DNA of 64,000 nt. Origin: Pigmentiphaga sp. NML030171 (GTDB taxonomy: Bacteria; Pseudomonadota; Gammaproteobacteria; Burkholderiales; Burkholderiaceae_B). Under the pieces are notes generated by a model, which did no database searches, was not told the origin of the DNA, and saw nothing but the letters and a program-made list of their open reading frames with translations. Location of the stretch: assembly GCF_002188635.1 (NCBI RefSeq), contig NZ_NINX01000024.1, forward strand, positions 62,001-126,000, in the 5' to 3' direction. Positions 15,305 to 59,122 of this stretch are shown piece by piece (position 1 is the stretch's first letter; every line of letters starts with the position of its first letter). Position numbers and translations under genes: made by a program.

Positions 15305-16090
15305 ATGAGGCTGTTCATCGAGGACACGCTGTTCCATGCCGCGGGCGCCCCGCTGCCGCTCGACCTTCCCCACGCGCGGGCATGCGATGCCCTGGCCACG
15401 GGCGAGCCGGCGCGGCCCCCCATGGCCGGCACGGTCTACGGCGTGCTGCACAACGACCCGGCGGCGCTGGCCGCGATGGGAGACCGGGTCCTGGCCCCGC
15501 CCTACAAGGCAGCCCCCAAGGCCCCCGTGCTCTACATCAAGCCTCGCAACACGCACCTGGGCCATGGCCGCGCCATCCCGCTCCCGCCCGGTGCCGAGGC
15601 CGTCCAGGTAGGCGCAGCGCTGGGCGCGGTCATCGGCCGCACCGCCTGCCGCGTCGCCCCCGGCGACGCGCTGGACTACGTGGCCGGCTATACCGTGGTC
15701 AACGACGTCACCCTTCCCCACCGCGAGTTCTACCGGCCGTCGCTGCGGCTGCGCGTACGCGACGGCTTCTGCCCCATGGGCCCCTGGGTGCGCGCGGCGC
15801 GGCAGGTCGGCAATCCGGACGCGCTCGACCTGCGCGTCTGGATAGACGGCGCCCTGCGCCTGCGGTCGAGCACCCGGGGCTTCCTGCGGCCCCTGCCCCA
15901 GCTCATCGCCGACGTGACCGACTTCATGACCCTGCAGCCGGGCGACGTCCTGCTGACCGGCCTGCCCTGGCCGGGCGATTTCGACGGACCGCTGGCGCAC
16001 GACGGGCAGCGCGTGGCCATCGAGATCGAGAACGTCGGCCGGCTCGAGAACCCGGTCGTCCGCGCGTCGGTCCAGGGAGGTTCGGCATGA
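15305..16090 (+). CDS. hpaG1: HpaG N-terminal-type subunit (fumarylacetoacetate hydrolase family)
   Basis: A 261-residue FAH-fold protein equal to the first half of the bifunctional HpaG of enteric bacteria, which isomerises and decarboxylates 5-oxopent-3-ene-1,2,5-tricarboxylate. The metal-binding E-x-E of the family is missing: the aligned segment reads VGAALGAVIG, where HpaG2 reads ECELAVVIG. GYTVVNDVT and LQPGDVLLTGLPWPG are conserved. The start follows GGGAGACCTCCGC. The stop overlaps hpaG2 in an ATGA, which fits a two-subunit enzyme with one metal-bearing partner. Confidence 0.88.
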   Translation: MRLFIEDTLFHAAGAPLPLDLPHARACDALATGEPARPPMAGTVYGVLHNDPAALAAMGDRVLAPPYKAAPKAPVLYIKPRNTHLGHGRAIPLPPGAEAVQVGAALGAVIGRTACRVAPGDALDYVAGYTVVNDVTLPHREFYRPSLRLRVRDGFCPMGPWVRAARQVGNPDALDLRVWIDGALRLRSSTRGFLRPLPQLIADVTDFMTLQPGDVLLTGLPWPGDFDGPLAHDGQRVAIEIENVGRLENPVVRASVQGGSA

Positions 16091-16845
16091 AGACCGCCCG
16101 CGTCGCCTACTCCGGCGCCATCCACACCGCCACGCCTTACGACGACAGCCGGCTGCGCCTGGCGGACGGCCGCATCGTCCTGCACGACGACGTCGTCTGG
16201 CTGCCGCCGTTCGAGGCGGGCACCATCGTCGCGCTCGGCCTGAACTACGCGGAGCATGCCAAGGAACTCAGCTTCGGCGCCCAGCAGGAACCGCTGGCCT
16301 TCCTGAAGGGGCCGGGCGCGCTGATCGGCCATCGCGGGCACACGCGCCGCCCGGCCGACGCCACCTTCATGCACTACGAGTGCGAGCTGGCCGTGGTCAT
16401 CGGCCGCAGCGCCGCCGGCGTCCGCCGCGACTGCGCCATGGATTACGTGGCCGGCTACACCGTGGCCAACGACTACGCCATCCGCGACTACCTGGAAAAC
16501 TGGTACCGCCCCAACCTGCGCGTCAAGAACCGCGACACGTGCACCGTGCTTGGCCCCTGGTTCGTCGACGCGGCCGACGTGCCCGACCCGCATGCGCTGG
16601 CGTTGCGCACCCTGGTCAATGGCGTCGTCACACAGCAGGGCAACACCCGCGACATGGTGTTCGACATCCCCGCGCTGATCGAATACCTGAGCGGCTTCAT
16701 GACCCTGGCCCCCGGCGACGTCATCCTGACCGGCACGCCGGACGGCGTGGTCGACGTCAAGCCCGGCGACGAAGTCATTACCGAGATAGACGGCATCGGC
16801 AGCCTGCGCAACACCATCGTGGGCGACGACGTGTTCGGCCGCTGA
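16087..16845 (+). CDS. hpaG2: HpaG C-terminal-type subunit, metal-dependent isomerase/decarboxylase
   Basis: A 252-residue FAH-family enzyme equal to the second half of HpaG. The metal ligands are present: E-x-E in HYECELAVV (near residue 99) and the aspartate in ANDYAIRDYLE. LAPGDVILTGTPDGV near the C-terminus is the family signature. It acts after HpaE in homoprotocatechuate breakdown, decarboxylating 5-oxopent-3-ene-1,2,5-tricarboxylate. It is translationally coupled to hpaG1. Confidence 0.92.
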   Translation: MKTARVAYSGAIHTATPYDDSRLRLADGRIVLHDDVVWLPPFEAGTIVALGLNYAEHAKELSFGAQQEPLAFLKGPGALIGHRGHTRRPADATFMHYECELAVVIGRSAAGVRRDCAMDYVAGYTVANDYAIRDYLENWYRPNLRVKNRDTCTVLGPWFVDAADVPDPHALALRTLVNGVVTQQGNTRDMVFDIPALIEYLSGFMTLAPGDVILTGTPDGVVDVKPGDEVITEIDGIGSLRNTIVGDDVFGR

Positions 16846-20699: not shown

Positions 20700-21503
20700 A
20701 TGATTAGCGAAACCCGCATCGCCGAGCTGGCGGCCGAATTGCACCAGGCCGAGAAAAGCCGCAGCCAGGTCGGACACTTCTCCAAGCGCTTCCCCGACAT
20801 GACGATCGAGGACGGCTACGCCGTCTCGCGCGCCTGGGTCCGTACCAAGATCCAGGAAGGCCGCGTCGTGCGCGGTCACAAGATAGGCCTGACCTCGCGC
20901 GCCATGCAGTTGTCCAGCCAGATCGACGAGCCCGACTACGGCACGCTGCTGGACGACATGTTCTTCCACGACGGCACCGACATCCCCGCCGAACGCTTCA
21001 TCGCGCCTCGCATCGAGGTGGAGCTGGGCTTCATCCTGGGCCGTCCCCTGCGCGGACCAGGCGTGACGCTGTTCGACGTGATGGCCGCCACCGATTACGT
21101 CGTGCCCGCCGTCGAGATCATCGACGCGCGCATCGAACAGTTCGACCGCGACACGCGCGCGCCGCGCAAGGTGGTGGACACCATTTCCGATAACGCCGCC
21201 AATGCCGGCATCGTCACGGGCGGGCGGCCGGTCCGGCCCGACGCGGTGGATCTGCGCTGGGTCGGCGCGCTGCTCTACAAGAACGGCGTGATCGAGGAAT
21301 CGGGCATCGCCGCCGCCGTCCTGAACCACCCCGGCAACGGCATCGCGTGGCTGGCCAACAAGCTGGCTCCCTGGGGCGAGTCGCTGCAGGCCGGACAGAT
21401 CGTGCTGGCGGGCTCGTTCACCCGCCCCGTGCCCGCCCGGCCCGGCGACGCCTTCCACGCCGACTACGGGCCCCTGGGCTCCATCGCCTTTCGCATCGCC
21501 TGA
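20700..21503 (+). CDS. hpaH: 2-oxohept-4-ene-1,7-dioate hydratase
   Basis: A 267-residue hydratase of the MhpD/HpaH family within the FAH-related fold. Conserved segments are [12 protein letters not shown] near residue 60, [24 protein letters not shown] (metal-binding E-x-E) and [15 protein letters not shown] at the end. It hydrates the diene acid to 4-hydroxy-2-oxoheptanedioate, the substrate of HpaI. No strong ribosome binding site precedes the ATG, so coupling to hpaF is likely. Confidence 0.92.
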
Positions 21504-46237: not shown

Positions 46238-47215
46238 ATGACGCGCCGACCCGCCTCCGTGCGCATCGTGGCCACCGGCGGCACCATCGCCGGCGCCGCG
46301 CCATCGCCGCGGGACACCAGCGGCTACCGCGCCGGCGCCCTTCCGGCCGCCGCGCTGCTGGCCGACCTTCCCCTTCAGGACGACATCCGCCTGGATGCGC
46401 GGCAACTGGCTTCGCTGGACAGCAAGGACGCGCTGCCCGAGTTATGGCAAATGCTGGCGCGGGAACTGGAGCAGGCACAGTCGGACCCCGGCGTCGATGG
46501 CGTGGTGCTGACCCACGGCACCGACACCCTGGAGGAGACGGCCTGGTTCCTGCACCTGACCCTGGCCCTGGCCAAGCCGCTGGTCATCACCGGCGCCATG
46601 CGCCCCGCCACCGCGATCTCCGCCGACGGTCCCATGAACCTGCTGCAGGCCGTGCAGGTGGCGGCGTGCCCGTGGGTGGCGCGGCACGGCGTCGTTGCCG
46701 TCCTGAACGGCCGGGTCCACCACGCCCGCCATCTGCGCAAGGCGCACACGCATCGCGTGGACGCCTTCGATAGCGGGGAAGCCGGCGCCGCCGGCTTCGT
46801 CCAGGATGGCTACGTGGGCTGGCTCTCGCCGCCCCGCCGCCGGCCGCCACGTTTCCCGCCGGACACGCCGCTGGCGCCCGTGGACATCCTGTTCGACTAC
46901 CCCGGCATCTCCACCTCGATGGTCGATGCGGTCCTGCGCGCCGGCGCGCGCGGGCTGGTCTGGGCCGGCTACGGCAACGGTTCCATCAGCGGCCGCATCG
47001 AGCCGCTGTTGCGCGAGGCCGGACGCCGCGGCCTGGCGATCGTGCGCGCCACCCGTACCGGCGCCGGCCGGGTGGCACATCCGGGCACCGGCGATTTCAT
47101 CCAGGCCGCCGGCCTGGACCCATACAAGGCGCGCATCGCGCTGATGCTGGCGCTGGGCGCCGGCACGCCGCCGGCGGCCTTGCAAGCGCTGTTCGACACC
47201 CTGTCCTACGAATGA
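46238..47215 (+). CDS. L-asparaginase (type II-like fold)
   Basis: A 325-residue asparaginase/glutaminase. ATGGTIAG at residue 12 supplies the nucleophilic threonine and GVVLTHGTDTLEETAWFLHL near residue 88 the second threonine-aspartate pair; GAMRP and SADGPMNL follow as usual. No signal peptide is present, so it should be cytoplasmic although its sequence resembles the periplasmic type. GCGGAGGCCGC precedes the ATG. Confidence 0.9.
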   Translation: MTRRPASVRIVATGGTIAGAAPSPRDTSGYRAGALPAAALLADLPLQDDIRLDARQLASLDSKDALPELWQMLARELEQAQSDPGVDGVVLTHGTDTLEETAWFLHLTLALAKPLVITGAMRPATAISADGPMNLLQAVQVAACPWVARHGVVAVLNGRVHHARHLRKAHTHRVDAFDSGEAGAAGFVQDGYVGWLSPPRRRPPRFPPDTPLAPVDILFDYPGISTSMVDAVLRAGARGLVWAGYGNGSISGRIEPLLREAGRRGLAIVRATRTGAGRVAHPGTGDFIQAAGLDPYKARIALMLALGAGTPPAALQALFDTLSYE

Positions 47216-47226
47216 ATGAAGCAAGC

Positions 47227-47256
47227 GGCGCGCCCGGGGTTTTCCCCCAGCGCGCC
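47227..47256 (+). terminator. Hairpin after asparaginase gene
   Basis: GGCGCGC/GCGCGCC (7 bp) encloses GGGG-TTTT-CCCC. It sits 12 bases after the stop; no T-run follows, so terminator strength is uncertain. Confidence 0.45.
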
Positions 47257-47284
47257 ATCGTTGAAAGCGGCAACTTGTTACGGT

Positions 47285-47309
47285 ATAGTTGATAAAATCC
47301 ATAGTTGAT
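47285..47309. promoter_or_regulatory. Direct repeat upstream of Bug gene 5
   Basis: ATAGTTGAT occurs at 47285-47293 and 47301-47309, 16 bases apart start to start, in an AT-rich stretch 72-96 bases before the Bug start. It could be a regulator site or promoter region. Confidence 0.4.
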
Positions 47310-47380
47310 TTAAGCAACAATCTGGCTTTTCCCCGGCAAGGACGAGAAGTCCTCCGGACAGCCGCCATCGAGGAGACAGC

Positions 47381-48364
47381 ATGAAGACCCGTTTCGCCCT
47401 CCGGCTGGGAGCCGTCGCGGCTGCCTTGGCGACGACGCTGCCCGCATGGGCGCAAAGCGAATCCGCGGCCAATTATCCGTCGCGGCCGATACGCATCATC
47501 GTTCCCTACACGCCGGGCGCGATCAATGACGTACTGGCGCGCCGCATCGCGCAGCAGTTGTCCGAAGCGCTCAAGCAATCGGTCGTCGTGGAGAACAAAC
47601 CCGGCGGCGGCACCGTCATCGGCACCGAATACGTCGCACGCGCCGAACCCGACGGCTACACGCTGCTGCAGACGGCAGCCTCGCACTCGATCAATCCGAG
47701 CCTGGTTCCCAAGCTGCCCTACGACTCCATCAAGAGCTTCAGCTTCATCACCCTGGTGGGAACCTCCCCCTACGTGATGACCGCCACCCCCAGCCTGCCC
47801 GCCAACACGCTCCCCGAGCTGATCGCGCTGGCCAAGTCGCAACCGGGCAAGATCTCGTACGCCTCGACCGGCAACGGCGGCAGCGCCCACCTGATGGGCG
47901 AGCTGCTCAAGGACATGGCCCAGATCGACCTGATGCACATTCCCTACAAGGGCCTGGCGCAAGGCCTGAACGACGTCGCCAGCGGACAGGTGCAACTGAC
48001 GTTCAGCACCTATACGGGCGCGATGGCCTACCTGCAGCCCGGCCGCGTGAAGGCGATTGCCGTCACGGGCAAGGAACGCATGTCGGTGCTGCCCAACGTG
48101 CCCACCATCGCCGAAACCCTGCCCGGCTACGATGCCTCGGGCTGGTGGGGCTATGTCGCGCCGGCCGGCACGCCCAAGCCCATCGTCGACAAGCTCAATC
48201 GCGAGTTGAACAAGATCGTGCAATCGGCCGACTTCAAGGAGCACTTCAAGTCCCAGGGGGTCGAGATGCTGGGCACCACGCCTGACGAGTTCCGGACCCA
48301 CGTCGAGCGCGAGATGGAAACCTGGCGCAAGCTGATCAAGAAAGCCAACATCACGATGGGCTGA
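47381..48364 (+). CDS. Bug-family solute receptor 5
   Basis: A 327-residue TctC-type receptor. Signal peptide ends near PAWA-QSESAANYPSRP; core RIIVPYTPGAINDVLARRIA; ligand loop VVENKPGGGTVIGTEYVARAEPDGYT by position; HIPYKGLAQGLNDVASGQV near residue 185. GAGGAGACAGC precedes the ATG. It ends 9 bases before an enolase-superfamily gene, forming a receptor-enzyme pair likely to handle the same carboxylate. Confidence 0.93.
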   Translation: MKTRFALRLGAVAAALATTLPAWAQSESAANYPSRPIRIIVPYTPGAINDVLARRIAQQLSEALKQSVVVENKPGGGTVIGTEYVARAEPDGYTLLQTAASHSINPSLVPKLPYDSIKSFSFITLVGTSPYVMTATPSLPANTLPELIALAKSQPGKISYASTGNGGSAHLMGELLKDMAQIDLMHIPYKGLAQGLNDVASGQVQLTFSTYTGAMAYLQPGRVKAIAVTGKERMSVLPNVPTIAETLPGYDASGWWGYVAPAGTPKPIVDKLNRELNKIVQSADFKEHFKSQGVEMLGTTPDEFRTHVEREMETWRKLIKKANITMG

Positions 48365-48373
48365 CCCCCTGCC

Positions 48374-49480
48374 ATGAAGATCGCCCGCTGGTCGCTGGAC
48401 TTCTACCACCTGGCCTATCGCCGCCAGGTGGTCTGGGCCAACGCGATCGAGGACGCCGGCGTCTACGCCCTGCTGCGCATCGAGTCGGACGACGGCCTGG
48501 CCGGCATGGCCGAAGGCACAGTCAAGGCGACCTGGTCCGGCGTCTCGCCGGCCTCGCTGGCCGCGGCCTTCCGCGACCTGGTGATGCCTGCGGCGGCGGG
48601 CCTGGACGTATCCGACCCGGCCGCGCTGCGCCAGGCGCTGGCTCCCCTGCCGGAGAATCGACTGGCCAAGGGCATGCTGGAGACCGCCTGCTGGATGCTG
48701 CGCGCCGCCCGCGCCGGGCAGCCGCTGTGGCAATTCTGGGGCGGCACGCCCGAGGTCGAGGTGACCTGGACCGTGACCCGCCAGCCTCCGGAGGTCATGG
48801 CCCGCGAAGCCGCGGGCGCGGCCGAGCGCCATGGCATCCGCGCGTTCAAGATCAAGGGCGGACAGGGGATGGACGTCGACCGGCGGGCGCTGCGCGCCAT
48901 ACGGCGGGCCGTGGGCGACGGCGCGGTCTTCAACGTGGACGCCAACTCGGCCTACGCGCCGGACGAGGCCGCGGCCTACCTGCGCCTGCTCGAGGACGAA
49001 GGGGTCGAGACCGCGGAAGATCCCTGCCCGCTGCGCCCGGATGCCCATTTCGAGGCCTTGCAGCGGGGCACCGCCCTGCCCATCCTGGTGGACAGCCCCT
49101 GCGCCACGGTCGCCGACGCCGCGCTGTTCCTGGAACGGGGCGCGCGCTCGCTCAGCGCCAAGCCCGGGCGCATAGGCATGACCGAGACGCTGGCCATCGG
49201 CGACCTGGCGCGCAAGTACGGAGCCCGGATCGCCACCGGCATCTATGCGGAAAGCGCGCTCGGTACCCTGATCAACCTGCAACAAGCCGGGGCCGTGCCT
49301 GCCGCCGACTGCGCCTTCGCCGCGGAACAGACTTTCTTCCTGACCCTGGCCGAGCAGGTCGTGCCGGCCGAACCCGTCATCCGGCGCGGCCGCGTGGCGC
49401 TGCCGCCGTCCCCTTGCGTGGACGACTGGATAGACCGCGAGCGGCTGGAGCGGTACCGCCTGCCCGTGTCCGCGTCCTGA
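48374..49480 (+). CDS. Enolase-superfamily enzyme (muconate lactonizing/dipeptide epimerase-like)
   Basis: A 368-residue enolase-superfamily protein. The catalytic lysine is in AFKIKGG near residue 160, the metal ligands in NVDANSAY (D), AEDP (E) and LVDSP (D), and the second lysine in SAKPGRIGM. This pattern fits the muconate-lactonizing-enzyme subgroup (cycloisomerase, racemase or dehydratase). Its 3' end overlaps the convergent LysR gene by 104 bases. With the Bug gene upstream it makes a two-gene operon of unknown substrate. Confidence 0.88.
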   Translation: MKIARWSLDFYHLAYRRQVVWANAIEDAGVYALLRIESDDGLAGMAEGTVKATWSGVSPASLAAAFRDLVMPAAAGLDVSDPAALRQALAPLPENRLAKGMLETACWMLRAARAGQPLWQFWGGTPEVEVTWTVTRQPPEVMAREAAGAAERHGIRAFKIKGGQGMDVDRRALRAIRRAVGDGAVFNVDANSAYAPDEAAAYLRLLEDEGVETAEDPCPLRPDAHFEALQRGTALPILVDSPCATVADAALFLERGARSLSAKPGRIGMTETLAIGDLARKYGARIATGIYAESALGTLINLQQAGAVPAADCAFAAEQTFFLTLAEQVVPAEPVIRRGRVALPPSPCVDDWIDRERLERYRLPVSAS

Positions 49481-50366
49481 GGGATGCGGTCTGCGCCTGC
49501 AGCCAGGCGCGAAAATCCGCCAGCACCGGGTCGCCGGCGTTCTCGACCGGATAGGCGAAGTAGTAGGCGCCTTCGCTGCGCACGGCCAGGTCCGACAACA
49601 CCTTGAGCTTGCCCGAGCGCAGCTGGTCGCCGATCAGGAAACGCGGCAGCAGCGCCACGCCCAGGCCGGCGCAGGCGGCGCTGATCAGCATGGACTGGAT
49701 CTCGAAGCGCGGCCCCCGCATGACGTTGACGTCGGGCAGGCCAGCCGCCGAGCACCAGTGGCGCCAGGCCTCGGGGCGGGTCATCAGGTGCAGCAGCCGG
49801 CAGCCTACGATGTCTCGCGGACCGGGCGCGGCGGCGCCCCGCAGCAATGCCGGGCTGCCCACCGGCAGCAGCACCTCGTCGAACAAGTGGTCGATCCCCG
49901 CGCCGGGCCAGTCGGGCGCGCCGAAATACAGGGCGCCGTCCAGCGCGCTTTCGCTGAAGAAGAAGCGCGTGCTGCGCGCGCTGACGTGCACGGTGGCCCC
50001 GGGCTGGTCGTCGTAGAACGAGGCCAGCCTGGGCACCAGCCATTGCGATCCCACGGTCGGCAGGGCGGCGATCTCGAGCACCACGCCGCCTCCCTCGTGC
50101 CCCATGACTTCCTGCGTATCGCGCTCGATGCGTTCGATGGTCTGCATCACCCGCTCGCCATACATGGCTCCCGCACGCGTGAGCGAGATGCGCTTCTTGA
50201 TGCGGTGGAACAGCCGCACGCCGAGTTGTTCCTCTAACAGCGAGATCTGGCGCGACACGGCGCTTTCGGTCAGTGACAGCTCGGCCGCCGCGCGGGTGAT
50301 GCTGAGGTGGCGCGCCGCCGCGTCGAAGGCGGTCAACGCACCGATGCTGGGCAGCCTGCGTCGCAT
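49377..50366 (-). CDS. LysR-family transcriptional regulator (GcvA-like)
   Basis: A 329-residue LysR regulator. RRRLPSIGALTAFDAAARHLSITRAAAELSLTESAVSRQISLLEEQLG (by position, residues 2-50) is the HTH of the GcvA-like group, followed by a substrate domain with GAALPTVGSQWLVPRL-type sequence. The last ~35 residues are Arg/Ala-rich and lie in the 104-base overlap with the enolase-superfamily gene. It is divergent from the FAD monooxygenase gene, 102 bases away, the usual position for its regulator. Confidence 0.9.
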   Translation of the reverse strand: MRRRLPSIGALTAFDAAARHLSITRAAAELSLTESAVSRQISLLEEQLGVRLFHRIKKRISLTRAGAMYGERVMQTIERIERDTQEVMGHEGGGVVLEIAALPTVGSQWLVPRLASFYDDQPGATVHVSARSTRFFFSESALDGALYFGAPDWPGAGIDHLFDEVLLPVGSPALLRGAAAPGPRDIVGCRLLHLMTRPEAWRHWCSAAGLPDVNVMRGPRFEIQSMLISAACAGLGVALLPRFLIGDQLRSGKLKVLSDLAVRSEGAYYFAYPVENAGDPVLADFRAWLQAQTASLRTRTRAGGTAPAARGLSSRPRKGTAAAPRGRAG

Positions 50367-50468
50367 TGGGTCATTCCAAAAACTCAAGATGTCTCCAGAA
50401 TAAATCGTTTGTCGGACCGCGGACAAGACTCCTAGGATGTGTCCCGTTCCTCCACATTCCTGCATGCC

Positions 50469-51677
50469 ATGACCGCAAACAACGAACGAGTCCTGATCGC
50501 CGGCGCCGGCCCCGTGGGCCTGGTGGCCGCCAACGTGCTGGCGGATGCCGGCATCCCCGTGACGGTGTTCGAGGCCGAGGCCAGCCTGCCGCAGACCTTG
50601 CGCGCCTCGACCTTCCAGCCTTCCACGCTGGACCTGCTCGCTCGCCTGGATATTTCGAAATTACTCATCAACATGGGCCTGGTGGCCCCGCGCATGCAGT
50701 ACCGCGACCGCCAGGGCTGGGTGGCAGAGTTCAACTTCGGCGCCATCGGCGACGAGACCGCGCACCCCTATCGCCTCCAGTGCGAGCAGTTCAAGCTGAA
50801 CGGCCTGCTGGTCGAACGCCTGGCGCGCATCCCGCATGCCGAGGTCCGCTTCGACGCGCGCGCGACCGACGTCCGGCAGGATGCGGACGGCGTCACGCTT
50901 ACGCTCCAGGGCGCCGACGGCGCCACGACGACGGAACGCGGCACCTGGCTGATCGGCGCCGACGGCGGCCGCAGCGCGGTGCGCGACCTGCTGGGCGTGG
51001 TGCTGGAAGGCTTCACCTGGACCGAACGCTTCCTGGTGGCCAGCACCCCTTTCGATTTCGCCGACGTCATCCCCGGCCTGGCCGAAGTCAGCTACTTCGC
51101 CGATCCCGAGCAGTGGTTCTTCCTCTTGCGCGTGCCCGGCCTCTGGCGCGTGATGCTGCCGGTGGGCGCGGACGAGACCGATGCCGACATCCTGTCGGAC
51201 GCCAGCATCCAGCGCCGCCTGCAATGCGTGCACCCGAACCCGGCCGGCTACGCCATCGAGCACCGCACCATCTATTCCGTGCACCAGCGCGTGGCGCCGC
51301 GATACCGGGTGGGCCGGGCCTTCCTGGCGGGCGACGCGGCCCACCTGAACAATCCGCTGGGCGGCATGGGCATGAACGGTGGCATACATGATGCTTTCAA
51401 TCTTGCCGACAAGCTGGCCCGCGTCTGCCTGGGGCAGGCCGGCGAGGCCCTGCTGGACAGGTACGAGGCGGAACGGCGGCCCGTGGCGCTCGACTACGTG
51501 AACAAGATCACCATCGCCAACAAGAACAACCTGGAGACGCGGGACGAGGCGCGGCAGAAGACCTGGCGCGAAGAAATGACCCGCACGGCCGGCGACGGGC
51601 AACTGGCCAGGGAGTACCTGTTGAAGGTGTCCATGATCAGCAGCCTGCGGCGGCCGGAGATGCACCAGGGCGCGTGA
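50469..51677 (+). CDS. FAD-dependent aromatic hydroxylase (PHBH/MhpA-like)
   Basis: A 402-residue group A flavoprotein monooxygenase. LIAGAGPVGLVAANVLADAG (residues about 8-27) binds FAD, IGADGGRSAVRDLLG near residue 155 is the DG motif, and FLAGDAAHLNNPLGGMGMNGG near residue 285 is the GD motif. It lacks the C-terminal thioredoxin-like domain of phenol hydroxylases. It should hydroxylate an aromatic acid or heterocycle. I used ATG 50469 over an upstream GTG. It is the first gene of a five-gene plus-strand series with Bug, DUF2848, cupin and amidase. Confidence 0.88.
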   Translation: MTANNERVLIAGAGPVGLVAANVLADAGIPVTVFEAEASLPQTLRASTFQPSTLDLLARLDISKLLINMGLVAPRMQYRDRQGWVAEFNFGAIGDETAHPYRLQCEQFKLNGLLVERLARIPHAEVRFDARATDVRQDADGVTLTLQGADGATTTERGTWLIGADGGRSAVRDLLGVVLEGFTWTERFLVASTPFDFADVIPGLAEVSYFADPEQWFFLLRVPGLWRVMLPVGADETDADILSDASIQRRLQCVHPNPAGYAIEHRTIYSVHQRVAPRYRVGRAFLAGDAAHLNNPLGGMGMNGGIHDAFNLADKLARVCLGQAGEALLDRYEAERRPVALDYVNKITIANKNNLETRDEARQKTWREEMTRTAGDGQLAREYLLKVSMISSLRRPEMHQGA

Positions 51678-51726
51678 CCCGCAGTATGCGCTCCCCTTCC
51701 CTACCATCCTCCATCGGGAGTTCAGC

Positions 51727-52695
51727 ATGTTCAGCAAATTCGCACTAGGCAGTATGCTCGCGCTGGTGTCGGCCACGGCTCCGGCCTGGGCCGACTCTTA
51801 TCCCAGCCGTCCCATCACCATCGTGACGCCGTTCCCCCCGGGCAGCACCAGCGATATCATTCCCCGCCTGCTGGCCCCCCATGTCTCGAAGGCCCTGGGC
51901 GCCACGGTGGTCGTCGAGAACCGCGCCGGCGCCAACGGCTCGCTGGGCGCCGCGAAAGTGGCGACCTCGCCGGCCGACGGCTACACGCTGCTGATGGCCA
52001 CGACCGGCGTGCTGGCCATCAATCCCTGGGTGTACGGCAAGCTGTCGTACGCCCCGGCCAAGGACTTCGATCCCGTCATCAACGCCGCGTCCACCCCCAA
52101 CCTGCTGGTGGCCCACCCCGGCATCGCGGCCTCCAACCTGAAGGAACTGGTCGACCTGGCGCGCAAGCGTCCCGGCGAGCTGACTTTCGCCTCGGCCGGC
52201 AACGGCAGCACCAGCCACCTGTGCGGCGAATCGCTGAAGGCGGCCACCGGCGTGGACCTGGTGCACGTGCCCTACCAGGGACCGGCCCCGGCCATGCAGG
52301 ACGTCCTGAGCGGCCGCGTCAGCCTGATGTGCGACAACCTCTCGAACGTCCTCCAGTACGTCAAGAGCGGCCGCCTGAAGGCCATCGCGCTGACCGGCAA
52401 GGAACGCAGCCCGCAGGCGCCCGACATCCCGACCTCGGCCGAGGCCGGCTACCCCGACGTGCAGGCCGGCAACTGGTACAGCTTCGTCGCGCCCGCGGGC
52501 ACGCCGCGCTCCATCGTCGACCGGCTGAACACCGAGTTCGCCAAGGCCTTGCACGACCCCGCCGTCACCTCCCGGCTGGAATCGCTGGGGCTGACCATCA
52601 TCGCCGACAAGCCCGACGAGTTCCGCGCCTTCATCGCGCAGGAATCGGCCCATTGGCAGAAGGTGGTCAAGGCCGCCAATGCCAGGCTGGACTGA
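51727..52695 (+). CDS. Bug-family solute receptor 6
   Basis: A 322-residue TctC-type receptor. Signal peptide ends near PAWA-DSYPSRP; core ITIVTPFPPGSTSDIIPRLL; ligand loop VVENRAGANGSLGAAKVATSPADGYT by position; HVPYQGPAPAMQDVLSGRV near residue 180. ATCGGGAG precedes the ATG by 8 bases. It lies 49 bases after the FAD hydroxylase gene, so it probably feeds that enzyme's pathway. Confidence 0.93.
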   Translation: MFSKFALGSMLALVSATAPAWADSYPSRPITIVTPFPPGSTSDIIPRLLAPHVSKALGATVVVENRAGANGSLGAAKVATSPADGYTLLMATTGVLAINPWVYGKLSYAPAKDFDPVINAASTPNLLVAHPGIAASNLKELVDLARKRPGELTFASAGNGSTSHLCGESLKAATGVDLVHVPYQGPAPAMQDVLSGRVSLMCDNLSNVLQYVKSGRLKAIALTGKERSPQAPDIPTSAEAGYPDVQAGNWYSFVAPAGTPRSIVDRLNTEFAKALHDPAVTSRLESLGLTIIADKPDEFRAFIAQESAHWQKVVKAANARLD

Positions 52696-52759
52696 CGGCC
52701 CGCCCGATCCGGCCGCCATGTCCGCATGCGCGGCCGCCACGTTTTCCGATGGATACACG

Positions 52760-53440
52760 ATGCTCCTGAACTTCATCACCGGCGCGGGCACCGCCTCGCG
52801 CGACACCGCCATCTCGCACGCAGTCATCGCCGGCTGGACCGGCCGCGACCGCGAGGCCATGGAGAAACACATCGCCGAGCTGGAGGCCCTGGGTGTCCCG
52901 CGCCCGGCCGCCACCCCCATGTACTACCGCGTCGCGGCCTCCCGCCTGACCACACGCGACCGCATCGAGGTCTGCGGCACCGACTCCAGCGGCGAGGTCG
53001 AGTTCGTCATGCTGCGCGCGGGCGGGCGGTTGTGGGTAGGCATAGGCTCGGACCACACCGACCGCAAGGTCGAGACCATGGGCGTGGCGATCTCCAAGCA
53101 GTTGTGCGAGAAACCCGTGGGCGCTGACTGGTGGCTGTTCGACGATGTGGCCGCGCACTGGGACCGGCTGCTGCTGCGCGCCTTCATCGAGGAAGACGGC
53201 CGGCGCGTGCCCTACCAGGACGGCCCGGTGACGGCCATGCGCCATCCGCTCGAGCTGATCGCCGGCTATGCCGACGGCGGTGGCGCCCTGCCCGAAGGCG
53301 GCGCGATGTTCTGCGGCACGCTGCCCGCCCACGGCGGCATCCGCCACTCGGCCCGCTTCGATTTCGAACTGCACGACCCCGTGCTGGACCGCACGCTGCG
53401 CCACGGCTATCTCGCCGAGTCGCTGCCCGTGGCCGGCTGA
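52760..53440 (+). CDS. DUF2848-family protein
   Basis: A 226-residue protein of the uncharacterised DUF2848 family. Conserved blocks are MYYRVAASRLTTRD near residue 54, WVGIGSDHTDRKVETMGVAISKQLCEKP near residue 95 (by position) and GGAMFCGTLPAHGGI near residue 188. The last block resembles the PGD-ILTGTP region of fumarylacetoacetate hydrolases, so an FAH-like fold is possible (my inference). The start is uncertain; an ATG 42 bases upstream is also in frame. It is followed 28 bases later by the cupin gene. Confidence 0.8.
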   Translation: MLLNFITGAGTASRDTAISHAVIAGWTGRDREAMEKHIAELEALGVPRPAATPMYYRVAASRLTTRDRIEVCGTDSSGEVEFVMLRAGGRLWVGIGSDHTDRKVETMGVAISKQLCEKPVGADWWLFDDVAAHWDRLLLRAFIEEDGRRVPYQDGPVTAMRHPLELIAGYADGGGALPEGGAMFCGTLPAHGGIRHSARFDFELHDPVLDRTLRHGYLAESLPVAG

Positions 53441-53468
53441 TTCCCTTTCATATCAGGAGTCCCTTTTT

Positions 53469-53855
53469 ATGCCCGTGAACAAACTGCACGACGAATTCCA
53501 TAACGTGGACATGGAGAACGGCTGGCAATTGCCCGAAGGCTACGACCCCGCCTCCGGCGCCCGCGAGAAGATCCTGGCCGGCGCGCTGGACGTCCTGAAC
53601 AAGCGGGGCAGCCGCACCCGCCTCCTGCGCTTCCCGCCCGGACTCCACACGCGGGAGGCCATCGTCCATGACCATTGGGAGGAAGTCTTCCTGGTCTCCG
53701 GCGACCTCACGGTGGGCAACGACGCCGACGGCAACGGCGGCACGCCGTTCTCCGGCTACACCTACGCGGTGCGCCCGCCCGGCGCCTGGCACGGCCCGTT
53801 CAAGTCCAACGGCGGCTGTCTCCTTCTGGAAATACACTACTACGACCCTGCCTGA
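53469..53855 (+). CDS. Cupin-domain protein
   Basis: A 128-residue single-cupin protein. The metal-site motifs are visible: IVHDHWEEVFLVSGDL (H-x-H and E, near residues 69-75) and PPGAWHGPF (histidine, near residue 107). Such small cupins act as isomerases, lyases, dioxygenases or sensors. ATCAGGAGTCCC precedes the ATG. It sits between DUF2848 and the amidase in one apparent operon. Confidence 0.82.
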   Translation: MPVNKLHDEFHNVDMENGWQLPEGYDPASGAREKILAGALDVLNKRGSRTRLLRFPPGLHTREAIVHDHWEEVFLVSGDLTVGNDADGNGGTPFSGYTYAVRPPGAWHGPFKSNGGCLLLEIHYYDPA

Positions 53856-53861
53856 GGCCCA

Positions 53862-53883
53862 CCCCTACGCCCTTCGGGCGCCC
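53862..53883. repeat. 22-base repeat, copy 2
   Basis: Identical to 38515-38536 and located between the cupin and amidase genes; it contains the hairpin CGCCCTTCGGGCG, which may modulate read-through. Confidence 0.75.
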
Positions 53884-53903
53884 AGCACGCATGGATGATT
53901 GAT

Positions 53904-55259
53904 ATGACTCCGCCCGACAAGTCCCTAGAACACCTGAGCGCCGAGCTGGACGCCGGCCGCGTCACCAGCCGCGCGCTGGTGGAAGACTGCCTGGCGCGCA
54001 TCGCCGACCCCTCCGGCGAAGGCGCGCGCGTCTATACCCTGGTGGACGCCGATGGCGCGCGGCGGGCCGCCGACGCGATCGACGCGGCGCGCGCGCGAGG
54101 GGAAAGCACCCGGCGCCTGGCGGGTATTCCCATCTCGATCAAGGACTTGTTCGACATCGAAGGCCAGGTCACGACGGCGGGCTCGCGCGTGCTGGCCGAG
54201 GCCCCGCCCGCCGCGCGCGACGCCGAGGCGGTCGCCCGCCTGCGCGAGGCGGGCTTCGTCGTCATGGGCCGCACGAACATGACGGAGTTCGCCTATTCGG
54301 GGCTGGGACTCAATCCCCACCACGGCACGCCGCTCAACCCCTACGACCGCAAGACCGGCCGGATTCCCGGCGGCTCGTCCTCGGGCGCGGCGGTGTCGGT
54401 CACGGACGGCATGGCGGCCGTGGGCCTGGGCACCGATACCGGAGGCTCGTGCCGCATCCCCGCCGCGCTGACCGGCCTGACCGGCTTCAAGCCCACCGCC
54501 GCGCGCGTACCCGCCACCGGCGCCTTCCCGCTGTCGACCACGCTGGACAGCATAGGCGGCATCGGCCGCACGGTGAATTGCTGCGCCATCGTCGACGCCA
54601 TCCTGTCCGGCGATCCGGTTTACCCGAACGAGCGTGCGTCCCTGGCCGGACTGCGCATGGGCGTGCCGCAGACACTGGTGCTGGACGGCATGGACCATGA
54701 CGTGGCCTCGGCCTTCCAGGACGCGCTGCGGCGGCTGTCGCAAGCCGGCGCGGCCATCGTGGACGTGCCCTTCGCGGAGTTCGCGGAACTGGCCGCCATC
54801 AATGCCAAGGGCGGCTACACGGCCGCCGAGTCCTATCCGCTGCACCGGGACATGATGGCCCGGCATGGCGACCTGTACGACCCGCGCGTCAAGGTGCGCA
54901 TCGAGAAAGGCGCGCAGCTGACCGCGCAGGACCTCGCCGAATTGCACGCCCGCCGCGCCGACTGGATACGGCGCACGAGCCGCCACTTCGAGACGCTGGA
55001 CGCCATCGCCTGCCCCACGGTGCCCGTGATCGCGCCGGCGCTGGGTGAACTGGCCGACGACGAGGCCTATGGCCGGACCAACCTGCTGGTGCTGCGCAAC
55101 CCGACCTTCATCAACTTCCTGGACGGGTGCGCCATTTCGCTGCCCTGCCACGCACCGGGCACGGCGCCGGTCGGCCTCATGCTGGCCGCGCCGGGCGGCC
55201 AGGACCGCCGCCTGCTGGCGGTGGCGCGCGCCGTCGAGGCCCTGCTCGCGGCGCGCTGA
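53904..55259 (+). CDS. Amidase signature-family enzyme
   Basis: A 451-residue amidase with the Ser-cisSer-Lys triad: K80 (PISIKDLFD), the serine cluster IPGGSSSGAAVS near residue 158 and the nucleophile S182 (GTDTGGSCRIPAA). It hydrolyses an amide, releasing ammonia and an acid; similar proteins include the AtzF/GatA-like group. Two in-frame ATGs exist (53895, 53904); GGAT lies at a better distance from the second. It closes the hydroxylase-Bug-DUF2848-cupin series. Confidence 0.9.
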   Translation: MTPPDKSLEHLSAELDAGRVTSRALVEDCLARIADPSGEGARVYTLVDADGARRAADAIDAARARGESTRRLAGIPISIKDLFDIEGQVTTAGSRVLAEAPPAARDAEAVARLREAGFVVMGRTNMTEFAYSGLGLNPHHGTPLNPYDRKTGRIPGGSSSGAAVSVTDGMAAVGLGTDTGGSCRIPAALTGLTGFKPTAARVPATGAFPLSTTLDSIGGIGRTVNCCAIVDAILSGDPVYPNERASLAGLRMGVPQTLVLDGMDHDVASAFQDALRRLSQAGAAIVDVPFAEFAELAAINAKGGYTAAESYPLHRDMMARHGDLYDPRVKVRIEKGAQLTAQDLAELHARRADWIRRTSRHFETLDAIACPTVPVIAPALGELADDEAYGRTNLLVLRNPTFINFLDGCAISLPCHAPGTAPVGLMLAAPGGQDRRLLAVARAVEALLAAR

Positions 55260-55270
55260 GCCGGCGGCCG

Positions 55271-56431
55271 CTACTTGCGCCGCGCGAACTCCAGGTACTC
55301 CGGGTCGAAGCTCATGCCCCATCCCGGCGCGGTCGGCAGCGTGTAGAACCCATCGACGAACGGCCGGGCCGGCTGGTTCGCGATCAGCTTGTAGAAGAAC
55401 GGATCGCGCCAGGGAAGCATGACTTCGGCATAGCGGCCGTTGACCACGCCCGCCGACATCATCAGGCCGATCTGCGGCTCCAGGTGCTGCATGACCGAGA
55501 CGTTGAAGGCCGAGGCCAGCATCGCCACGCGCCGCCACTCGGTCGGACCGCCGCCCCAGCTCGCATCGAAGTTGCAAATGTCGATGGCGCCCGCCGTCAG
55601 CAGGTCGCGGCAACCGAAGCGCGACAGCTCGCTCTGCCCCGCGGCCACCGGCACGCCGCCCACGGTCCGCACCACCGCCATGTCGGCGCGGTCGTTGTCC
55701 CAGCGGCAGGGCTCCTCGAACCAGGCCAGGTTCAGGTCGCGCGTCCGGCGCACGAACTCCAGCGCCTCTTCGCGGCTCCATCCCTGGTTGGCGTCGCAAG
55801 CCAGCACGAAGCCATCGCCGCCGGCCCGGCGCACGGTCTGGGCGCGCAGGGCGTCCTCGGCGGGCGTCTTGCCCCCCAGCTTGAGCTTCAGGCCATGGAT
55901 GCCGAAGGCCTTCAGTTCGGCCACTTCGTCCGCCAGGGCCTCCAGGTCGCCGCTCTGGCGGTAGTACCCGCCCAGCGCGACCACCGGCACCCGCTCGCGC
56001 GCGCCGCCCCACAACAGGTGCAGCGGCAGGCCGGCCAGCTTGCCCACGGCATCGTGCAGCGCGCTGTCCACGCAGGCCTGGGCCCGCAGCGCCACCCGGC
56101 GGTCGCGCAGGAAAGGCTCGGTCGCGCGCCGCGTGGCGGCCCAGGCGTCGTCGATGGCCGCCACGCGGCGGCCCTTGAGCAAGGGCTCCAGTTCATCGTG
56201 GATCAGCCGGATGATGGCCGGCTGAAGTTCGTCGTCGTTGCCGTTGAAGCACTCGCCCACCACGCCGGCGTCGGTGTGCACGCGCGTGACGATGGTGCAG
56301 CGATGGGTCAGCTTCAGGGTCGAACCCGTGGCCGGCCGCTCCAGCTCCACCCTCAGCGGAATGGTCTCGATGCGGGTGATGCGGGCGTCCACCAGGGCAG
56401 GCACGCCGCCTTGTCTGATTGCGGAAGTCAT
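55271..56431 (-). CDS. Mandelate racemase-like enolase-superfamily enzyme
   Basis: A 386-residue enzyme of the mandelate racemase subgroup: K-x-K in GLKLKLGGK near residue 185, metal ligands in LACDANQGW (D), WFEEPCRWDND (E) and AGQSELSRFG (E), and a C-terminal histidine in VMQHLEPQ. Most relatives dehydrate or racemise sugar acids or hydroxy acids. CTAGGAGCGAT precedes the ATG, and the start overlaps the stop of the upstream gene in an ATGA, so they are coupled. Confidence 0.9.
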   Translation of the reverse strand: MTSAIRQGGVPALVDARITRIETIPLRVELERPATGSTLKLTHRCTIVTRVHTDAGVVGECFNGNDDELQPAIIRLIHDELEPLLKGRRVAAIDDAWAATRRATEPFLRDRRVALRAQACVDSALHDAVGKLAGLPLHLLWGGARERVPVVALGGYYRQSGDLEALADEVAELKAFGIHGLKLKLGGKTPAEDALRAQTVRRAGGDGFVLACDANQGWSREEALEFVRRTRDLNLAWFEEPCRWDNDRADMAVVRTVGGVPVAAGQSELSRFGCRDLLTAGAIDICNFDASWGGGPTEWRRVAMLASAFNVSVMQHLEPQIGLMMSAGVVNGRYAEVMLPWRDPFFYKLIANQPARPFVDGFYTLPTAPGWGMSFDPEYLEFARRK

Positions 56432-57054
56432 ATCGCTCCTAGGCCGGGTTCGAGTACGTAGATCCGTTCGCACATGACCCGGCGCGTGTTCTGGAAATGC
56501 GGGCGCACGCGGCTGCTCCAGCCGGTCGCGCGCACCGCCAGCCAGGCGGGATCCTGCTGGATGGCGGGCGTGGTCAGGTCGTAGCAGGCCAGCGAGCGCT
56601 GGCTGCCGTCGGGATTGTCCGCCACCAGCCGGCGCGCGCGCACGTTGCCCGTCACGGCGGCCAGCCCGGGCAGGTGTTCCTGCCCATACCAGTTCGACAG
56701 ATCCTCGGCCACATCGGGACGCACGTCGGTCTCGACCACGTAGTGGTGCGTGACCGGCTGGCCCTGCGAGACGCCGGGCAGGTCCTGCACCGGCGACAGC
56801 AGCAGGACGTCAGGCGCCTGGCCGGGCAGCAGCCTGCCGGCCCGCTCGGCGATGGCGCCGGCCAGTTCCAGGCCGCCGGGCCGCGCCGACCAGAAGTACA
56901 GGTACAGATGGGAGCCATCCAGCGCACGGTTCGCGTCCACGCGCTCGAAGCATCCGGGGTGGGCGGCCACCACCTCGGCCGCCAGTCGTTCGATGGCCGC
57001 CAGGTCGGCGGGCACCGGGGAATACCGCAATAACACCGCGGCGGGTCTGCTCAT
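56428..57054 (-). CDS. Protein with EthD/dimeric alpha-beta-barrel-like C-terminal half, unknown function
   Basis: A 208-residue protein I do not recognise by name. The C-terminal half (about 100-200) has HHYVVETDVRPDVAEDLSNWYGQEHLPGLAAV by position and RARRLV, a pattern like ferredoxin-fold EthD/DUF-type dimeric barrels (W-Y-x2-EHLP), and the N-terminal half may be a degenerate repeat of it. No signal peptide. It lies 34 bases after the Bug gene on the minus strand and is coupled by ATGA to the enolase-superfamily gene, so it probably acts on the same substrate. Confidence 0.75.
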   Translation of the reverse strand: MSRPAAVLLRYSPVPADLAAIERLAAEVVAAHPGCFERVDANRALDGSHLYLYFWSARPGGLELAGAIAERAGRLLPGQAPDVLLLSPVQDLPGVSQGQPVTHHYVVETDVRPDVAEDLSNWYGQEHLPGLAAVTGNVRARRLVADNPDGSQRSLACYDLTTPAIQQDPAWLAVRATGWSSRVRPHFQNTRRVMCERIYVLEPGLGAI

Positions 57055-57088
57055 AGATGCATCTTCCAGAAATTGCCTGCCGGACGCG

Positions 57089-58063
57089 TCAATCGGCCTG
57101 GATGCCCAGCCGCTTGATCAGCTCCGCCCACTTGGTCGTCTCGCCGGCCATGAACTTGCCGAAGGGCTCCGGCGACAGATAGGCCACCGACGCGCTCTCG
57201 GCCTCCAGGCGCTGGCGCATGTCCGGCTCGGCCAGGATGTCGCCGATGGCCTTGCTCAGCTTGTCGACGATGGCCGGCGGCGTGCCGGCCGGCGCCAGGA
57301 TGCCCCACCAGTTGTCGCCGTCGTAGCCGGCCAGGCCCGCTTCCTGGACCGTGGGCACCTCGGGCAGCACGGGTTGGCGCTTGGAACCGCTGACGGCCAG
57401 CGGCCGCAGGCGGTTGGCCTTGACGTGCGGCAGGGCCTGCAGCACGGTGCCGACGGACACCTGGGCATGGCCCGCGGCAACGTCGGTCAGGGCGGCGCCG
57501 GCGCCCTTGTAGGGCACGTGCGTCATCGAGATGCCGGCCCGGATCTCGAACAGTTCGCTGACCAGGTGCTGCGAGCTGCCCACGCCGGACGACACGTAGT
57601 TGAGCTTGCCGGGATTGGCCTTGGCGTAGGCGATCAGGTCCGACAGCGTCTTCACGGGCAGGCCCGGATAGACCGAGATCAACAGCGGCGCGGTCGCCAG
57701 CCGGGCAACGGGCGAGAAGTCCTTGGCCGGATCGTAGGGCAGCTTCTTGTACAGCGTCGAATTCGCCGTGTGCGGCGTCGAGATCAGCAACAGCGTATAG
57801 CCGTCCGGACGGGACTTGGCCACCACTTCGGTGCCGATGGTGCCGCCCGCTCCGCCCCGGTTGTCGACGATGAACGGCTGCCCCAGGCGCTTGGTCAGCT
57901 CCTCGCCGATCAGGCGGCCGACGATGTCATTGCTGCCACCGGGCGCGAACGGGATCACGATGCGCACCGGCCGGGCGGGGTAGTCCTCGGCGCGCGCGGC
58001 GCCGAGCGTGGAAGCCAGCGCCAGGGCAACGGCCGGGACCAGGAACTTGCGGGACATCTGCAT
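57089..58063 (-). CDS. Bug-family solute receptor 7
   Basis: A 324-residue TctC-type receptor. Signal peptide ends near GAARA-EDYPARP; core RIVIPFAPGGSNDIVGRLIG; ligand loop VDNRGGAGGTIGTEVVAKSRPDGYT by position; HVPYKGAGAALTDVAAGHA near residue 180. GAGGAGACCCC precedes the ATG. It heads a minus-strand operon with the alpha/beta-barrel protein and the mandelate racemase-like enzyme, and is divergent from a LysR regulator. Confidence 0.93.
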   Translation of the reverse strand: MQMSRKFLVPAVALALASTLGAARAEDYPARPVRIVIPFAPGGSNDIVGRLIGEELTKRLGQPFIVDNRGGAGGTIGTEVVAKSRPDGYTLLLISTPHTANSTLYKKLPYDPAKDFSPVARLATAPLLISVYPGLPVKTLSDLIAYAKANPGKLNYVSSGVGSSQHLVSELFEIRAGISMTHVPYKGAGAALTDVAAGHAQVSVGTVLQALPHVKANRLRPLAVSGSKRQPVLPEVPTVQEAGLAGYDGDNWWGILAPAGTPPAIVDKLSKAIGDILAEPDMRQRLEAESASVAYLSPEPFGKFMAGETTKWAELIKRLGIQAD

Positions 58064-58195
58064 GGGGTCTCCTCGTGCATGCCGCCTTGGCGGAATCCCG
58101 CTGGCGGCGTTTAGTCAAGAGGCGGCATTGTGCGCACGCGTGCCATTTTCATCAATAAAATAGCTTCTACATCTGATATCCATAAATCAAATACC

Positions 58196-59122
58196 ATGGA
58201 CCTGCAGCAGCTGGAATCCTTCGTGCGCGTGGCCGAACTGGGCAGCCTGACCCGCGCCGCGCTGGTGGCGGGCGTCTCCCAGCCCACGCTCAGCCGCCAC
58301 ATCCGCCTGCTGGAACTCGAGCTGAAATCCCATCTGCTGGTCCGCACCGGCCGCGGCGTGGAACTGACCGAATCCGGCAAGTGCCTGCTTTCCTACGGCA
58401 ACGCCATCCTGAAGCTGACACGGCAGGCCCGCGCCGACATCCAGGCGCTGCGCGAACAGCCCACCGGCAGGCTGACCGTGGGCCTGCCTCCGCGCATCGC
58501 GCATGTGCTGACGCCGGAACTCGTCAAGCAATTCCGCCAGCGCTATCCCGAGGCATCGATTTCCGTTTCCGAGGGCCTGAGCGTCGCGCTGCGCGAGGAC
58601 CTGATACTGGGCAAGATCGAGATCGCGCTGCTGTTCGATCCTCCGCCCAGCCCCCGGCTCGAATACCGCAGCCTGTATCGCGAAGACATGGTGCTGTGCG
58701 GCCGCCCCAAGCCCGCCTTTCCGCTGCCGGCGCGGCTGGCGGCACGGGAGCTGGAGCGCTATCCGGTCCTGGTGCCCAGCATTCCGAACGCCGTGCGCAA
58801 CGTGATCGAGGCCGGCTGCCGGCCCCATGGCATCAAGCTGAACGTCGTGGCCGAGGTCGACGCCGTGCATACCCTGCTCAAGCTCGCGCTGAGCGGACAG
58901 GGCTATGCCATCGTGCCGCGCAGCGCGGCGCCCATCGCCAGCACGGTCGAAGGCGGCCCGTTCAGGATCTCCGCCATCGGCTCGCCCCGCATGCGCAACA
59001 ACCTCGTATTGGCCACCGCCCGCGAGCGGCCGCTGTCGCAGCTCGCGCAGGGAACGGTGGAACTGCTGGCGGCACAGGACATCGGCCGCCTGCTGGACGC
59101 CGGGCGGCGCATCAACGGATAG
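58196..59122 (+). CDS. LysR-family transcriptional regulator (Nac/CbbR-like)
   Basis: A 308-residue LysR protein. MDLQQLESFVRVAELGSLTRAALVAGVSQPTLSRHIRLLELEL (by position, residues 1-43) is the HTH; the effector domain includes LTVGLPPRIAHVLTPELVKQF and YAIVPRSAA. It is divergent from the Bug operon, with a 132-base AT-rich gap holding ATCTGATATCCAT near 58171-58183, a candidate site. By position it should control the Bug/barrel/racemase operon. Confidence 0.9.
   Translation: MDLQQLESFVRVAELGSLTRAALVAGVSQPTLSRHIRLLELELKSHLLVRTGRGVELTESGKCLLSYGNAILKLTRQARADIQALREQPTGRLTVGLPPRIAHVLTPELVKQFRQRYPEASISVSEGLSVALREDLILGKIEIALLFDPPPSPRLEYRSLYREDMVLCGRPKPAFPLPARLAARELERYPVLVPSIPNAVRNVIEAGCRPHGIKLNVVAEVDAVHTLLKLALSGQGYAIVPRSAAPIASTVEGGPFRISAIGSPRMRNNLVLATARERPLSQLAQGTVELLAAQDIGRLLDAGRRING

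Follow-up and report, generated by a model that had tools for sequence, protein, structure and literature searches.

We describe a six-gene locus of Pigmentiphaga sp. NML030171, a member of the Alcaligenaceae with a genome of 5.86 Mb. The locus lies within the window, by which we mean the whole stretch of DNA analysed, 64,000 nucleotides of contig NZ_NINX01000024.1 (positions 62,001 to 126,000). It comprises a divergent gene for a LysR-type regulator and five plus-strand genes for a flavin adenine dinucleotide (FAD)-dependent hydroxylase, a Bug/TctC-type receptor, a DUF2848 protein (DUF, domain of unknown function), a small cupin and an amidase-signature (AS) amidase (Table 1). An earlier note on this DNA had delimited these genes and named their families; all six were found where it had placed them, and the Pfam families agree, with the cupin below the cut-off and assigned with the help of its predicted structure. 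The note also took the genes to be a single unit, which is borne out by a divergent regulator gene and five collinear, closely spaced genes, the gaps between the latter being, in order, 49, 64, 28 and 39 nt. There is no terminator-like site between the five plus-strand genes, those detected being inside the LysR gene, and a sigma-70 scan returned no consensus promoter. The amidase gene ends 11 nt from the next gene, which is convergent.

The LysR gene probably starts at 50366 rather than at 50465, judging from its relatives, and the nearest NCBIfam model for its product is GcvA, with a score under that model's cut-off. An operator-like block in the intergenic region is recognisable in all eight of the regions aligned, which were hand-chosen from loci with a divergent LysR/hydroxylase pair; in L067, one of these, the ATTC end has a different first base. 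Because the block is conserved even in the most divergent region, L073 (35 of 39 bases identical, with a hydroxylase 71% identical), it is probable that the divergent LysR protein controls the five-gene unit.

Table 1. Genes and operator-like block of the locus, in window positions
Feature	Position (strand)	Length	Family match or other basis
LysR-type regulator, divergent	49377..50366 (-)		Pfam HTH_1 and LysR_substrate
Operator-like block between LysR and hydroxylase genes	50373..50411 (.)	39 bp	Ends ATTC-N21-GAAT in the window
FAD-dependent hydroxylase, class A type	50469..51677 (+)	402 aa	Pfam FAD_binding_3, 4.2e-65
Bug/TctC-type extracytoplasmic receptor	51727..52695 (+)		Pfam TctC, 2.3e-70; signal-peptide-like N-terminus, judged by eye
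DUF2848 protein	52760..53440 (+)	226 aa	Pfam DUF2848, 1.5e-83
Small single-domain cupin	53469..53855 (+)	128 aa	Predicted structure
AS amidase	53895..55259 (+)	454 aa	Pfam Amidase, 8e-85

Linkage of the enzyme genes

The linkage of these families is not due to chance, since it is kept in the bacterial family of the window, in a sample of the phylum and in the GTDB collection. Among 250 genomes of the window's family, DUF2848 occurs in 143 and the cupin in 27, weak matches included, and 19 strong cupin places in 14 genomes were taken for a study of neighbourhoods. Genes in relatives were labelled by BLAST against reference proteins, with Pfam and NCBIfam checks on examples. DUF2848 and the amidase both lie within the stretch at 16 of the 19 places, and a related flavin monooxygenase is present at 15. 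Of these monooxygenases, twelve belong to the FAD type, with one lying some 8.5 kb away from its cupin; the other three were assigned to the HpaB type by clustering, and one of the three was checked by Pfam.

Of the 398 genomes in the phylum sample, 35 have DUF2848 and nine have the cupin (E<=1e-12). Excluding the window's genome, seven of the eight genomes with the cupin have DUF2848, compared with 34 of the 397 genomes as a whole (Fisher P 1.4e-7, uncorrected for relatedness). DUF2848 adjoins an AS amidase at 26 of 30 loci examined, these being drawn from 37 DUF2848 places in that sample, with the window's own included and about one-third from one genus group. A related monooxygenase lies within 1.5 kb at four of the nine non-window cupin places, all four being closer relatives.

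A scan with the cupin alignment across one genome per GTDB species gave at least 559 relatives. The best 80 were taken, so that near relatives are over-represented, and the 65 loci of at least 18 kb form the denominator for counts of gene content. A related flavin monooxygenase accompanies the cupin at 63 of the 65 (20 FAD type and 44 HpaB type, with one locus having both); DUF2848 is present at 51, the amidase at 31, both at 30 and neither at 13. Among all 80, a monooxygenase occurs at 73 loci, on the same strand as the cupin in 70 of these and within 150 bp of it in 50. The genera represented include Burkholderia, Paraburkholderia, Caballeronia, Pandoraea, Bradyrhizobium and Tardiphaga, and the closest named copies of the locus among these best 80 belong to Pigmentiphaga and to one metagenome-assembled genome of the Burkholderiales. 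Joint loci recur, with the gene order reshuffled, in both beta- and alphaproteobacteria. The HpaB version is most complete in Caballeronia, Ralstonia, Trinickia and a single Paraburkholderia locus, where the cupin, the amidase and DUF2848 stand with a flavin reductase, an HpaB-type enzyme, a MarR regulator, an opposite-strand IscS-like gene and a branched-chain-type ATP-binding cassette transporter.

The set is also found on plasmids. There are 21 plasmid records with a cupin match, and six were examined. In three annotated plasmids (Caballeronia, Roseateles and Thioclava), the flavin reductase, HpaB-type enzyme, cupin, amidase and DUF2848 are together; a fourth, unannotated record has the set by BLAST labels, and it is absent from another of the six.

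Neighbourhood conservation had been named beforehand as the test that could overturn the proposal, and the search shows DUF2848, cupin and amidase to be conserved neighbours. The composition first described holds in part: the recurring members are the cupin, DUF2848 and, with less constancy, the amidase, together with one or other of two unrelated flavin monooxygenases, whereas the FAD hydroxylase as such and the Bug receptor can be exchanged. A chance neighbourhood would have one circumstance in its favour, namely that FAD_binding_3 is abundant in the host genome (65 places listed, 24 above 180 bits), so that one such gene nearby is unremarkable by itself; the conservation of linkage among exactly these families contradicts it, and its probability is close to nil.

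The gene content around the set varies. An IscS-type cysteine desulfurase gene (e.g. L113:6426-7778) adjoins it in 31 of the best 80 cupin loci, mostly in Burkholderiaceae and also in Ottowia (L139) and Ramlibacter (L140). The IscS-like gene prompted consideration of a molybdenum hydroxylase partner of the xanthine-dehydrogenase type, which was rejected: the neighbours tested encode a sigma-54 regulator, the tau subunit of DNA polymerase III, a TPR/glycosyltransferase protein and an efflux system, and no molybdenum hydroxylase is among them, no genome-wide search having been made. In one of eight cluster loci of Burkholderia (L113), the gene after DUF2848, considered as an alternative amidase, encodes a methyltransferase. 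An NMT1-like protein with no obvious signal peptide stands among the enzymes in L138 (8973-9980), L147, L151, L154, L160, L165, L173, L178 and L107. It may be a decarboxylase similar in kind to 4,5-dihydroxyphthalate decarboxylase; a PDB search with it gave no match. Either this protein or a UbiD-type gene accompanies the set in some loci and, if these are decarboxylases, an aromatic-acid substrate would fit.

DUF2848 also has a setting of its own within the family. Twenty DUF2848 loci that lack the cupin (L080-L099) were hand-picked from about 130, and at none of these 20 was a related monooxygenase found. Tripartite ATP-independent periplasmic (TRAP) transporter genes are present at 19 of them (not L090), an amidase at 18 (not L098 or L099) and a gene for a D-glutamate-cyclase-like hydro-lyase at 15, the families having been checked on one example. 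The TRAP transporter, DUF2848 and amidase make up a recurrent operon in the window's family, for which no described function was found.

On the amidase side of the locus, at 55271-59122, there is a neighbouring unit consisting of an MR_MLE enolase-like gene, a gene for a 208-aa protein with no Pfam match, a Bug receptor gene and a further LysR gene. The unit is kept in several Pigmentiphaga-type genomes and is absent at other cupin loci. It is kept apart from the operon because its first three genes are convergent, the LysR gene lies beyond them and the unit is missing from cupin loci outside Pigmentiphaga-type genomes. On the other side, at 46238-49480, there are asparaginase-like, Bug and MR_MLE-like genes (named by eye), and the end of the last overlaps the end of the LysR gene at 49377-49480.

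Predicted enzymes and a possible order of reactions

The hydroxylase has an FAD_binding_3 domain with the GxGxxG, DG and GD motifs of class A flavoprotein hydroxylases (GAGPVG, GADGGRS and AGDAAH), and its best solved relatives are PnpA (8e-63) and then HspB (2.1e-45). The amidase matches NCBIfam PRK07056 at 671.7 bits (cut-off 447) and has the AS domain with the motifs of a Ser-cisSer-Lys triad, starting at residues 81 (SIKD), 159 (GGSSSG) and 181 (DTGGS); it is an ordinary AS protein.

For the DUF2848 protein, the start at 52760 is the one that fits its relatives, and an AlphaFold2 model was obtained with a predicted local distance difference test (pLDDT) score of 92.9. Foldseek returned 31 matches with E<1e-3, all of them recognisable as members of the fumarylacetoacetate hydrolase (FAH) superfamily, which the entry titles of several do not name; they include a fumarylpyruvate and a maleylpyruvate hydrolase, and TM-scores by query length are 0.51-0.69. 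The predicted structure thus has the FAH fold. The earlier note had seen an FAH-like end in this protein, and in the predicted fold the likeness extends over the whole length. Residues E79, E81, D98 and K113 are identical in 36 of 36 sequences, and we take them to resemble the metal triad (E-x-E ... D) and catalytic lysine of FAH enzymes. DUF2848 is an FAH-fold and probably metal-dependent enzyme with E79, E81 and D98 as putative metal residues. A domain of unknown function can be given a predicted fold and candidate catalytic residues, and the linkage supplies a conserved partner for it. Places matching FAA_hydrolase also occur elsewhere in the window (15431-16821 and 20919-21497), and a search of the genome lists 40.

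In Pfam, the cupin reaches only a sub-threshold match to Cupin_7 (23.6 bits, cut-off 27). Its model (pLDDT 93.0) is recognised by Foldseek as a cupin fold, and six residues (H67, E71, E72, R102, H108 and C117) do not vary across the 99 aligned rows, seven of which are second copies of genes already counted. The protein probably uses a metal at a 2-His-1-Glu site, for which the putative ligands are H67, E72 and H108; this role is suggested by comparison with the cupin motif, whose first histidine is missing here.

Two questions bear on how these enzymes might act together: (i) whether the two types of monooxygenase deliver the same product to the cupin; and (ii) in what order the remaining enzymes act. 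As to the first, an HpaB-type two-component enzyme replaces the FAD hydroxylase in most of the relatives found, although the two families are unrelated. In a tree of 92 cupins, those with FAD-type and those with HpaB-type neighbours are partly intermixed, with 10 switches by parsimony when the nine rows without a related monooxygenase are left out. The tree has 128 columns and is poorly resolved; seven rows repeating a genome were dropped, the states of 12 family rows were set by hand, and L103 was scored as FAD type. Because the monooxygenases that exchange are unrelated, a simple reading is that the cupin receives one kind of product from either, and their exchange in front of nearly the same cupin is a natural hint that this may be so.

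As to the second question, the set comes apart into two modules. The monooxygenase and cupin occur without DUF2848 or amidase at 13 of the 65 cupin loci; nine of these were searchable, in eight genomes, and all eight genomes have DUF2848 elsewhere. The search covered ten loci in nine genomes, including one short locus in the ninth, and all nine genomes carry DUF2848, at 11 places. At six of these DUF2848 adjoins an amidase, with neither cupin nor TRAP genes present; one is a TRAP operon with amidase, two have the cupin/HpaB-type set in the stretch, and two have none of these (one stretch being only 4.1 kb). DUF2848 and amidase without a related monooxygenase or cupin are also common in other genomes. 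The separability of the modules supports, without proving, a step order in which monooxygenase and cupin form the upper module and DUF2848 and amidase the lower one.

The proposed pathway would then run as follows. The Bug receptor may bind the substrate for import, and the FAD hydroxylase, or the HpaB-type two-component enzyme in most relatives, would hydroxylate a phenol or pyridinol ring. Opening of the hydroxylated ring would fall to the small cupin, most likely with the use of O2; the resulting oxo-acid would be hydrolysed or hydrated by DUF2848; and the AS amidase would free ammonia from the carboxamide left over. FAH enzymes often act after ring cleavage, and the predicted FAH fold of DUF2848 supports the pathway for this reason. 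We infer the reactions, their order, the metals, the control by LysR and the substrate class from sequence, predicted folds, conserved residues and linkage. We give about an even chance to this account, in which LysR controls a catabolic operon whose substrate is a hydroxylated ring compound with nitrogen either as a ring atom or in a carboxamide. The earlier note had suggested an amide-bearing aromatic or an N-heterocycle as substrate; its proposal is supported as far as gene set and linkage go, and its chemistry is conjectural.

Several observations weigh against this pathway. A related monooxygenase is missing from two of the 65 cupin loci, from four of the 19 family loci (L068, L069, L078 and L079) and from five of the nine phylum-sample places, where the flank was seen for only 1.5 kb. 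One distant cupin of the phylum sample sits in a TRAP/hydro-lyase setting. In a further plasmid of the six examined, from Vibrio maritimus (L195:6039-8354), DUF2848 and the cupin are the only members of the set; they adjoin an aminotransferase-like gene, with transposase genes nearby and neither monooxygenase nor amidase. It is not assured that the two monooxygenase types make the same product, because their best solved relatives differ in ring position: PnpA and HspB hydroxylate para to a ring hydroxyl, whereas the HpaB-type protein examined is closest to 4-hydroxyphenylacetate 3-monooxygenases, which hydroxylate a different position. Furthermore, the monooxygenase labels are clustered on the cupin tree (18 changes for three labels together, with a shuffled mean of 33.9), and the well-supported branches by themselves force only two changes. 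The DUF2848 profile has no significant relation to 11 FAH proteins of the same genome in hhalign (probability 0.5%, E 0.11), and in that weak alignment the E-x-E and the lysine are in register and D98 is out of register; nor was there a significant PDB match for DUF2848 by single sequence or profile.

The fold matches of the cupin also weigh against the pathway: most of those at the top of the Foldseek list are not dioxygenases (TM1459 and KdgF, for example), with acetylacetone dioxygenase further down and ChrR turning up by profile. The cupin might accordingly work by hydration or tautomerisation, opening or rearranging a lactam or hemiacetal-like ring in the manner of KdgF, once the monooxygenase has made an unstable hydroxy-ring. 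A distant cupin beside D-glutamate-cyclase-like and TRAP genes, with no related monooxygenase in the 3.4 kb seen, is in keeping with such a role, as is LumY, a cupin of lumichrome breakdown that acts between a hydrolase and a retroaldolase (PMC12746152). The presence of an O2-using enzyme near the cupin at nearly all of the long loci is, however, what would be expected for hydroxylation followed by oxygenolysis, although the argument is indirect, and we consider a non-dioxygenase cupin improbable.

Alternatively, the amidase might act first rather than last. An aromatic amide would be imported and deamidated, and the free acid would be hydroxylated, opened by the cupin and split by DUF2848. 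AS amidases often take aryl amides, and of the 35 loci among the best 80 that have the amidase gene, 31 have it no more than 150 bp from the cupin. The AS amidase is absent from all ten Burkholderia and all six Pandoraea loci among the 80, which weighs against the pathway proposed above and is what might be seen of a substrate-specific first step. Nevertheless, the DUF2848-amidase pair travels without related monooxygenase or cupin, which suits adjacent lower steps better than the two ends of a pathway, and an initial deamidation is in our judgement rather unlikely.

The same separability could mean that two unrelated functions share one transcript, with DUF2848 and amidase serving an imported non-aromatic amide and monooxygenase and cupin serving something else; each module does stand without the other at many loci. 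The reshuffled joint loci of beta- and alphaproteobacteria, and the presence of DUF2848 in nearly all cupin genomes searched, speak against this, and we think it very improbable.

A broader form of the proposed pathway, in which DUF2848 is a new FAH-superfamily enzyme normally paired with an AS amidase, the small cupin is a new ring-opening enzyme, and both act with an interchangeable flavin monooxygenase in a pathway, widespread but so far undescribed, for some hydroxylated N-heteroaromatic that is common in soils and roots, is put forward tentatively, as more doubtful than the operon itself. The compact set of monooxygenase, cupin, DUF2848 and amidase, present in many genera of Pseudomonadota, would in any case turn an annotation gap into a catabolic question that can be assayed.

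Comparison with known pathways

The earlier note knew of no pathway with this set of enzymes, and open-licence PubMed Central full text showed none, a search by which subscription papers could be missed. Within the same collection, work on pyrrole-2-carboxylate, on hydroxypyridine with cupin, on Pigmentiphaga clusters and on combinations of the families gave no matching pathway, and DUF2848/PF11010 gave nothing relevant, the papers that came up being, to judge from titles on malaria and a heart device, chance string matches.

There are nevertheless partial parallels. The hydroquinone branch of p-nitrophenol degradation proceeds through PnpA, PnpB and the hydroquinone dioxygenase PnpCD. It is similar in that PnpA is the best solved relative of the window hydroxylase, and in that its first step may be taken by either a single-component or an HpaB-like two-component monooxygenase; a 4-nitrophenol monooxygenase, 9j9j, is among the matches of the HpaB-type protein examined, ranking behind 4-hydroxyphenylacetate enzymes. 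It differs in that the Pfam matches of the five products show no quinone reductase, no PnpC/PnpD-type dioxygenase and no maleylacetate reductase, and it is not known to have a counterpart of the cupin, DUF2848 or the amidase.

The route from nicotine or nicotinate through 2,5-dihydroxypyridine uses HspB, NicX, NicD, NicF and NicE. HspB is the second-best solved relative of the hydroxylase, and an amide is hydrolysed near the end of the route. Enzymes of the NicX, NicD, NicF and NicE types are not found by the Pfam assignments of the operon, the rest of the genome not having been searched; instead, cupin, FAH-fold and AS-family proteins occupy comparable places.

In gentisate-type pathways a cupin dioxygenase is followed by a fumarylpyruvate or maleylpyruvate hydrolase of the FAH family, and the logic of opening by a cupin and then using an FAH-fold hydrolase is the same as proposed here. 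The window cupin, however, is a single domain of 128 aa and not a bicupin like the gentisate enzymes; no PDB entry is significantly matched by DUF2848 in sequence; and an amidase is added.

Finally, the lumichrome/riboflavin cluster of Nocardioides simplex (PMC12746152) contains lumV, a putative gene for a fumarylacetoacetate hydrolase, as well as the cupin LumY, so that a cupin and an FAH-type gene share one catabolic cluster there as well. The enzymes of that route are a P450, a xanthine oxidase, a Rieske dioxygenase and an extradiol catechol dioxygenase, and DUF2848 is not named in the passages on it; it was rejected as a match. The parts of the Pigmentiphaga locus fit a broad kind of pathway in which a ring is hydroxylated, opened and its product hydrolysed; their combination, and the inclusion of DUF2848, are new.

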